This document shows positions 28,609 through 29,035 of a DNA stretch of 64,000 bases, in pieces. Under the pieces are notes generated by a model. That model searched no databases. It was not told the origin of the DNA and saw only the letters and a program-made list of their open reading frames with translations. Each line of letters starts with the position of its first letter. Position 1 is the stretch's first letter. The stretch lies in assembly GCA_030913385.1 (NCBI GenBank), contig CP133159.1, positions 1,572,584 to 1,636,583 of the forward strand, in the 5' to 3' direction. The position numbers were made by a program, and so were the translations under genes. This DNA comes from Cytophagaceae bacterium ABcell3. GTDB taxonomy: Bacteria; Bacteroidota; Bacteroidia; Cytophagales; Cytophagaceae.

Positions 28609-28648
28609 GCTATGTTTAAGACACAAGTTTTATTGAATGTTTCAGGTT
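28609..28648. repeat. Dispersed palindromic repeat, partial copy D
   Basis: GCTATGTTTAAGACACAA is shared with the middle of copy B (14356-14497), and the segment ends TTTCAGGTTT like the right end of the family. The left end is missing. The MITE-like insertion begins directly after it. Confidence 0.55.
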
Positions 28649-28916
28649 TATGGTAGGGCGCGCTGAAAAACGCCCAAAATACTGACCTGTTTATATTTGT
28701 AAAAAAACTAGGAGGTATAGGTGCAAGGGTTTTTCGGTTATTTCTTATTTTTCCGTGCACAGTAAATTCAGAAGCTTTTAACCCACTACTTTTTTTGGGC
28801 TAGCCACAAGCGCACAATCTACTTTATGGCCTTACATTAGAAGTATTCCAATACGTCTTCATGTAAGGCCATGCGTATCTTGCACACTTGTGACTTTTTC
28901 AGCAGGCCCTATGGTA
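28649..28916. mobile_element. MITE-like element with 7-bp target-site duplication
   Basis: A 254-bp element (28656-28909) is flanked by TATGGTA on both sides (28649-28655 and 28910-28916). Its left end GGGCGCGCTGAAAAA and the complement of its right end, GGGCCTGCTGAAAAA, match at 13 of 15 positions, as terminal inverted repeats. Inside is a perfect 12-bp inverted repeat, ATGGCCTTACAT ... ATGTAAGGCCAT. It encodes no protein, so it would need a transposase in trans. GCTGAAAAA-type ends are known from several insertion-sequence families. Confidence 0.75.
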
Positions 28917-28936: not shown

Positions 28937-28967
28937 TAAAAAAAGCTGTATTTCTACAGCTTTTTTT
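28937..28967. terminator. Bidirectional terminator between the DUF4105 gene and glyS
   Basis: GCTGTA-tttc-TACAGC flanked by a run of A on the left and of T on the right, so it works in either direction between two convergent genes. Confidence 0.85.
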
Positions 28968-29027
28968 AACCTGAATTATGCATTATATTTTGCCACGCAA
29001 TAGAAAGTTCTAATGCATATTTCAGGT
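28968..29027. repeat. Dispersed palindromic repeat, copy C (60 bp)
   Basis: AACCTGAATTATGC at the left, GCATATTTCAGGTT at the right and the core GCAATAGAAAGTTCTAATGC between. It abuts the terminator and ends 8 bp before the glyS stop. Confidence 0.7.
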
Positions 29028-29035
29028 TTAATTTA

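Follow-up and report, generated by a model that had tools for sequence, protein, structure and literature searches.

Miniature inverted-repeat transposable elements (MITEs) are usually viewed as derivatives whose ends are their sole working parts, and the omega RNA of IscB/TnpB provides a case in which a structured non-coding RNA lies at a transposon end. Here we describe a 254-bp MITE of Cytophagaceae bacterium ABcell3, located in a stretch of 64,000 nucleotides (hereafter, the window; positions 1572584-1636583 of the single-contig 5.115-Mb genome, labelled G000), the right half of which is a conserved, strand-specific structure.

Bacterial MITEs are described, in the part of PMC10969869 that was available, as short, non-coding elements with terminal repeats and duplications, whose transcripts are predicted to fold and which insertion sequence (IS) transposases are thought to move. 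All of these general traits are common to the element of the window; what differs from that description is that its covarying half is common to MITEs of other genera, orders and phyla, some of them with other ends. The Coxiella elements QMITE1 and QMITE2 are linked, in the accessible text of PMC5896051, to the strongly folded small RNAs CbsR13 and CbsR16 and thus resemble our case as MITEs tied to folded RNA, but they are set apart by their description: QMITE1 is without BLASTn orthologues, and the duplications are of 2-4 bp (QMITE1) or 7-9 bp. The CIR elements of Caulobacter and its relatives, as presented in an excerpt of PMC2229807, are likewise intergenic repeats with a proposed RNA structure of phylogenetically conserved properties; by their description they differ in consisting of two arms and a linker, in carrying a GANTC motif and in belonging to alpha-proteobacteria. 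The bridge RNA of IS110 (PMC11208160) is another non-coding RNA at a transposon end. Like omega RNA, it parallels the module described below in being structured and in lying at an end of its element; however, both RNAs act with a protein encoded by the element, whereas the MITEs considered here encode none and have ends and duplications of the DDE type.

The MITE of the window and its copies

The element is bounded by direct copies of TATGGTA (28649-28655 and 28910-28916) that enclose 254 bp. A repeat search of the window paired its terminal inverted repeats, GGGCGCGCTGAAAAA on the left and GGGCCTGCTGAAAAA on the right (read inward), which match at 13 of 15 positions, and also returned a perfect 12-bp inverted repeat at 28826-28837 and 28861-28872. 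The duplication and both pairs of repeats had been reported in a preliminary description of the sequence and are confirmed here, except that the internal repeat, which was treated there as incidental, is part of the conserved structure. No open reading frame (ORF) of 50 or more amino acids is contained wholly within the 254 bp. The features are as follows.

28649-28655, no strand: target-site duplication TATGGTA, left copy, of the TA..TA form seen in 31 of 31 perfect duplications
28656-28909, no strand: MITE, 254 bp (from its ends, duplication, genome copies and consensus)
28656-28670, plus strand: left terminal inverted repeat GGGCGCGCTGAAAAA (sequence and genome pattern counts)
28680-28790, no strand: variable half, alignment columns 25-135, with 10.9% mismatch to the consensus, mostly variants common to several copies
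28721-28762, plus strand: perhaps what is left of a second core in inverted orientation (GTGCAAGGG...CCGTGCACAG), judged solely by eye
28797-28909, minus strand: conserved structured module, read inward from the right end (conservation, fold and cross-genus covariation)
28880-28895, minus strand: outer stem P1, 5' strand, 16 pairs of which four are G-U (fold)
28802-28817, minus strand: outer stem P1, 3' strand (fold)
28826-28872, minus strand: inner hairpin containing the perfect 12-bp inverted repeat (repeat search and fold)
28895-28909, minus strand: right terminal inverted repeat GGGCCTGCTGAAAAA (sequence and genome pattern counts)
28910-28916, no strand: target-site duplication TATGGTA, right copy (sequence)

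At least 40 near-full copies, including that of the window, are present in the genome; the others are 88-95% identical to it, the best at 95% with an E value of 4e-114. The genome search scores a limited number of candidates per genome (here 40 of 118), so that copy numbers are lower bounds. The pattern GGGCNNGCTGAAAAA, with at most one mismatch, occurs 149 times against 8 for a reversed control, and a 24-base piece of the right half, with at most three mismatches, 50 times against 0; by itself, the 9-mer GCTGAAAAA is unremarkable in the window (3 occurrences, 1.18 expected). Perfect duplications flank 31 of 43 aligned copies (22 of 6 bp and 9 of 7 bp), and every one of them starts and ends in TA (TA-N2/3-TA); the remaining 12 copies fit duplications with one or two mismatches. 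When the MITE was used as a query across 59 genomes, only its own genome matched, the other 58 coming from different genera. An empty site was found for a homologous MITE of genome G205, which belongs to another family of the order. The joined G205 flanks align with G380, a genome of the same genus, without gaps over 404 bp (366 identical), and G380 has TAAATA where the G205 MITE has TAAGTA on either side; both TA steps are therefore part of the target. Two more genomes are without the element at this site, in gapped alignments.

Being short, multi-copy and without a transposase gene, with terminal repeats, duplications at many insertions and ends in common with an autonomous IS of the same genome (one IS end; the other matches less well), the 254-bp element is securely identified as a MITE. 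The earlier proposal of a non-autonomous transposable element is thus upheld by dispersed copies with duplications of their own, by the empty site of the homologous MITE and by a resident IS with similar ends and target; of the checks that had been suggested, the search for further copies yields those above, and that for a full-length IS with such ends yields the resident one. A "fairly recent" insertion, as had also been proposed, is plausible: the duplication is perfect, and the copy in the window agrees with the consensus at 97.2% (against a median of 90% identity between pairs of copies), with one change in the conserved half.

The structured half and its relatives

Across the 43 aligned copies, mismatch to the consensus amounts to 10.9% (519) in the left half (columns 25-135) and 1.7% (77) in the right half (columns 136-239), with a sharp boundary between them. 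Of the substitutions common to at least two copies, 372 instances fall in the left half and 27 in the right, but singletons are similar (68 versus 46). Mutation aimed at A in the left half was considered and rejected, the changes not being enriched at A. With the target-site duplications taken as a rough neutral clock, a manual count gave 13 mismatches in about 540 site-lineages, or about 2.4%. The right half thus stays almost unchanged in spreading lineages, and once inserted it decays roughly as fast as neutral sequence. Pair counts within the host genome revealed no covariation above chance, which taken alone speaks against a conserved structure; given neutral decay after insertion, however, none is expected there.

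The folding z score of the right half is -9.2 for the minus strand and -5.7 for the plus strand. The minus-strand fold consists of a 16-pair outer stem with four G-U pairs, then a tandem G-A mismatch and, beyond it, an inner hairpin. An intrinsic terminator on this strand was dismissed, as the stem is followed by an A-run. A covariance model built on alignment A1 (47 of the 52 modules in G000) had matches in 12 of the 390 genomes searched from the order, namely the host and 11 others, which belong to two other families. In these, too, the module occupies one end of MITEs, which are about 260 bp long and in many cases flanked by TANNTA or TANNNTA; among 18 homologues, the second end was located by a strict pattern for 8 and by eye for 8 more, with none for L110 and L112. 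Covariation was analyzed in alignment A3, which comprises 29 chosen sequences from three families of the order and excludes the insert-bearing L112, L131-L134, L136, L138 and L139. In A3, 95.0% of the cells pair, and changes on both sides that keep the pair occur at 20 of 29 pairs. Cells altered on both sides number 87, compared to 25.1 ± 3.8 in shuffled alignments (reached in 0 of 500) and 4-19 when slid. In all 29 sequences, the structured strand gives a better fold than its complement, and some of the outer-stem G-U pairs are kept across genera. From the strand asymmetry it follows that one of the strands is important, be it as RNA or as single-stranded DNA. In L131-L134 and L136 (G205 and G380) and in L112 (G315), the module's internal loop contains inserts of about 20 nt or more (CCTG...CAGG) on one side or on both.

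No Rfam 15 family scored above threshold anywhere in the window or at 8 module-bearing loci, permissive scans gave only matches far below threshold, and an exact 19-mer of the G000 module had 0 matches in a broad contig collection from which the host genome is possibly excluded. We conclude that the right half is a conserved, strand-specific, single-strand structure, which is well supported, and we regard the joint reading, a MITE plus a conserved structure, as highly probable.

A model built from A3 recovered the module in 9 of 395 genomes of the class, 8 besides the host, in families f24, f40, f62 and f63; related modules are thus present in other orders of the class. At 14 module places that were read, a second end with a perfect duplication is present in four (TAATTA, TATTTA, TATCTA and TAAATA), and four more (L146, L147, L149 and L151) have, by eye, a second end and a duplication with a mismatch. 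L140, L141, L150 and L153 run off the contig, and L152 and a second match in L141 show no second end.

A core pattern derived from the f24 copies, AGATGCNAGGCG-N(20-50)-GCAACGNNGCAGATG, retrieved at least 114 stretches from the broad contig collection, which by record titles come from about eleven phyla: Acidobacteria and Aminicenantes, Bacteroidetes, Omnitrophota, Elusimicrobia, Verrucomicrobia and Kiritimatiellae, Planctomycetota and Brocadiaceae, gamma- and beta-proteobacteria, Desulfobacterales, Spirochaetales, Faecalibacterium and Phascolarctobacterium, and Streptomyces and Tessaracoccus. Many of the records are metagenome bins; isolates include Streptomyces sp. NBRC 110028, Microbulbifer rhizosphaerae, Nitrosomonas halophila and Tangfeifania diversioriginum. 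Viral contigs gave 0 matches to the core pattern; among plasmid searches, one matched 6 records and the others none, with no annotated feature beneath a match. The 117 core matches in these loci were reduced to 92 distinct ones with flanks kept and to 45 representatives that were counted. Since the letters of the core are fixed by the search pattern, covariation was tested outside it. The seven stem pairs beside the core are paired in 283 of 315 cells (240 Watson-Crick and 43 G-U, with 7 A-C and 25 other unpaired cells), compared to 46% with partners swapped between sequences, and the motif strand folds better than its complement in 42 of 45 representatives. Alignment A4 (34 sequences, of which 31 were taken from a set of 34 cross-phylum representatives and three are from Bacteroidota) has 182 double-change cells in 13 outer P1 pairs, compared to 64.1 ± 6.0 when shuffled (0 of 500) and to 48-63 in slid versions. 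Counted by pairs instead of cells, however, double changes show no excess over the shuffles (13 versus 12.7). Applied to the 45 loci, the Bacteroidota model gave 31 matches with E ≤ 1, all at the core and lying in 28 loci; 26 had E ≤ 0.01, and the best was 1.1e-9. The cross-phylum cores are likely homologous to the window module rather than convergent, but 17 of the 45 loci are without a model match, so homology across phyla is not proved. Against the overall reading of a MITE plus a conserved structure, Streptomyces sp. NBRC 110028 contains end pairs of 48-49 bp, too short for the core.

Most cross-phylum elements whose ends were found are short MITEs, and in some of them the ends and the target are of another kind, e.g., CTAG. 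Terminal repeats with a duplication of at least 4 bp were found for 33 of 71 cores, some of them by chance. An inverted end lies within 600 bp for 59 of 78 cores (lengths 166-332) and only beyond 600 bp for 3, with none for 16; the computed offsets overshoot the true end. That the module is part of an autonomous IS was rejected, as it is absent from the 1648-bp IS described below and as those 59 cores have so close an inverted end. A 4-kb element, L154, was likewise rejected as an autonomous case, since it looks like two inverted MITE copies around other genes; between these copies, positions 1062-2111 of this Kiritimatiellae contig encode, by sequence reading, an IS110-like transposase. Rfam searches at 10 cross-phylum loci returned one 6S RNA and two tRNAs, all away from the core. 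In Streptomyces sp. NBRC 110028, the element end has 115 matches, compared to 4 for a control pattern; the short end pairs mentioned above are at G769:C23:798918-798965 and G769:C47:50540-50588, and some 186-bp versions accompany the usual 159-bp element. An apparent second, degenerate inverted core was seen by eye in the other half of L175, L188, L191, L201, L202, L206, L217, L221 and L222.

In searches of an open-licence literature library, no paper was recognised as describing the module, and core fragments as text matched one unrelated paper. On balance, we lean towards the view that these structures form a family of structured RNA or single-stranded DNA that is as yet undescribed, is spread across bacteria and is carried by MITEs of different IS types. 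Its proposed layout, which we favour by a similarly narrow judgement, is a stem, a tandem G-A core (AGAUGC.AGGCG / GCAACG..GCAGAUG) and an inner hairpin, placed near one element end. The spread over about eleven phyla suggests a partner common to most bacteria or an activity of the RNA itself.

A candidate helper insertion sequence and neighbouring repeats

The resident IS is 1648 bp long, encodes a 516-aa transposase and is present in 8 identical copies, all 8 of which are flanked by six-base TANNTA duplications. One of its ends, GGGTCTGCTGAAAAACTCA, matches the right end of the MITE at 17 of 19 positions. The transposase carries Pfam transposase domains and scores 376.8 bits with the NCBIfam IS5 model NF033578 (cut-off 275), while ISNCY_1 (126, cut-off 325) and IS1182 (87.2, cut-off 270) remain below their cut-offs. 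A 4-bp duplication is usual for the IS5 subgroup; as the duplication here is of 6 bp in 8 of 8 copies, we speak of an IS5-type transposase without a subgroup. In G333, a relative that is 74% identical has an in-frame stop and another is split; both have similar ends and duplications (TAATTA and TATTTA).

We consider the 1648-bp IS to be the probable helper of the MITE. Its IS5-type transposase would move the MITE in trans by recognising GGG(C/T)NNGCTGAAAAA ends, inserting into TA-N2/3-TA and duplicating 6-7 bp. Several observations count against this assignment. The other IS end, GGGTCTGCTTAGAAA, is a poorer match to the MITE, the structured module is absent from the IS, and blastn of IS against MITE gave short, weak similarity only (best E of 0.022). 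Moreover, among 390 genomes of the order, 10 have a transposase relative (E ≤ 1e-60) and 12 have the module, and the two coincide only in G000 and G333, the G333 copies being interrupted or split; other helpers are therefore likely elsewhere. A different transposase might also move the MITE in the host itself: 10 of the 12 module-bearing genomes are without a relative at this threshold, and the similarity of IS and MITE is confined to the ends. We judge this rather unlikely, however, as MITE and IS agree in ends and in the TANNTA target within the host genome and the 8 identical copies suggest recent activity of the IS.

A second IS of about 1700 bp in G000 (L059-L062), whose transposase is found at 5 places, 4 of which were read and are near-identical, was rejected as helper; its ends are AGGGGATACTGG and TAGGGCTTCTTGG, and its transposase is 31% identical to that of the 1648-bp IS. 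The single-ended sites L035, L038, L041 and L048 were rejected as an autonomous element, no transposase being recognised by eye among their ORFs.

The partial copy of another repeat family that had been reported to adjoin the MITE is indeed present at 28625-28650 and, in the repeat search, is 85% identical to 29005-29030. The sequence TAATGCATATTTCAGGTTTA, with at most three mismatches, is found at 6 places in the window (6175, 14354, 14480, 28631, 28966 and 29011; 0.03 expected), two of which form an inverted pair at 28965-29031. In G205 (L096, contig C27), a MITE is inserted at the border of a different dispersed repeat, of which that genome has many copies.

Possible role of the structure

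The hairpin half would matter as a single strand of one polarity, here the minus strand, and may work as RNA on read-through transcripts or as single-stranded DNA. The orientation of the module relative to flanking genes is unbiased (24 versus 25), and of 33 copies 18 lie between convergent genes and 2 between divergent ones, as determined by crude ORF calling. Since the module is kept among lineages that spread but not clearly at individual sites, and since its orientation is unbiased, we tentatively propose that it aids propagation of the element, rather than benefiting the host wherever a copy lies.

A structure that acts as single-stranded DNA, as attC sites, REP/RAYT and IS200-type ends do, is doubtful, though worth weighing. 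The module begins at one element end, at a similar distance from it in many elements, and its strand asymmetry is equally compatible with single-stranded DNA, no promoter having been identified; against this, four outer-stem pairs are G-U, some of them kept across genera, which is more usual for RNA, and by its ends and duplications the element belongs with DDE transposons and not with those of the single-stranded DNA type. The position of 18 of 33 copies between convergent genes and a short T-run after the stem on the plus strand would suit a regulatory RNA, terminator or 3'-end element that serves the host and is selected at each locus. Yet the module decays after insertion at about the rate of the duplications, stem changes in genome copies are without a clear preference (20 G-U and 14 A-C instances, or 12 and 12 distinct events), and no orientation is preferred, so that we find such a role improbable.

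To two further explanations we give little credence. Gene conversion among copies may keep the right halves alike without any function, in agreement with the sharp boundary at column 136 and with variants L031 and L039, in which the same right half is joined to a different left half; it leaves the compensatory changes between genera and phyla unexplained. Alternatively, an ordinary MITE hairpin may look conserved merely because the copies are young. MITE transcripts are said generally to fold stably (in the sections available of PMC10969869 and PMC2229807), and the host genome holds no covariation, but the same copies differ from the consensus so unequally in their two halves, and covariation across genera and phyla and the strand asymmetry also disfavour this explanation.

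The element is thus best read as a MITE with a covarying structure that is kept while lineages spread and decays after insertion, and its core recurs in many phyla, on elements whose ends differ. Should this be confirmed, a single-strand component would be common to small bacterial elements.
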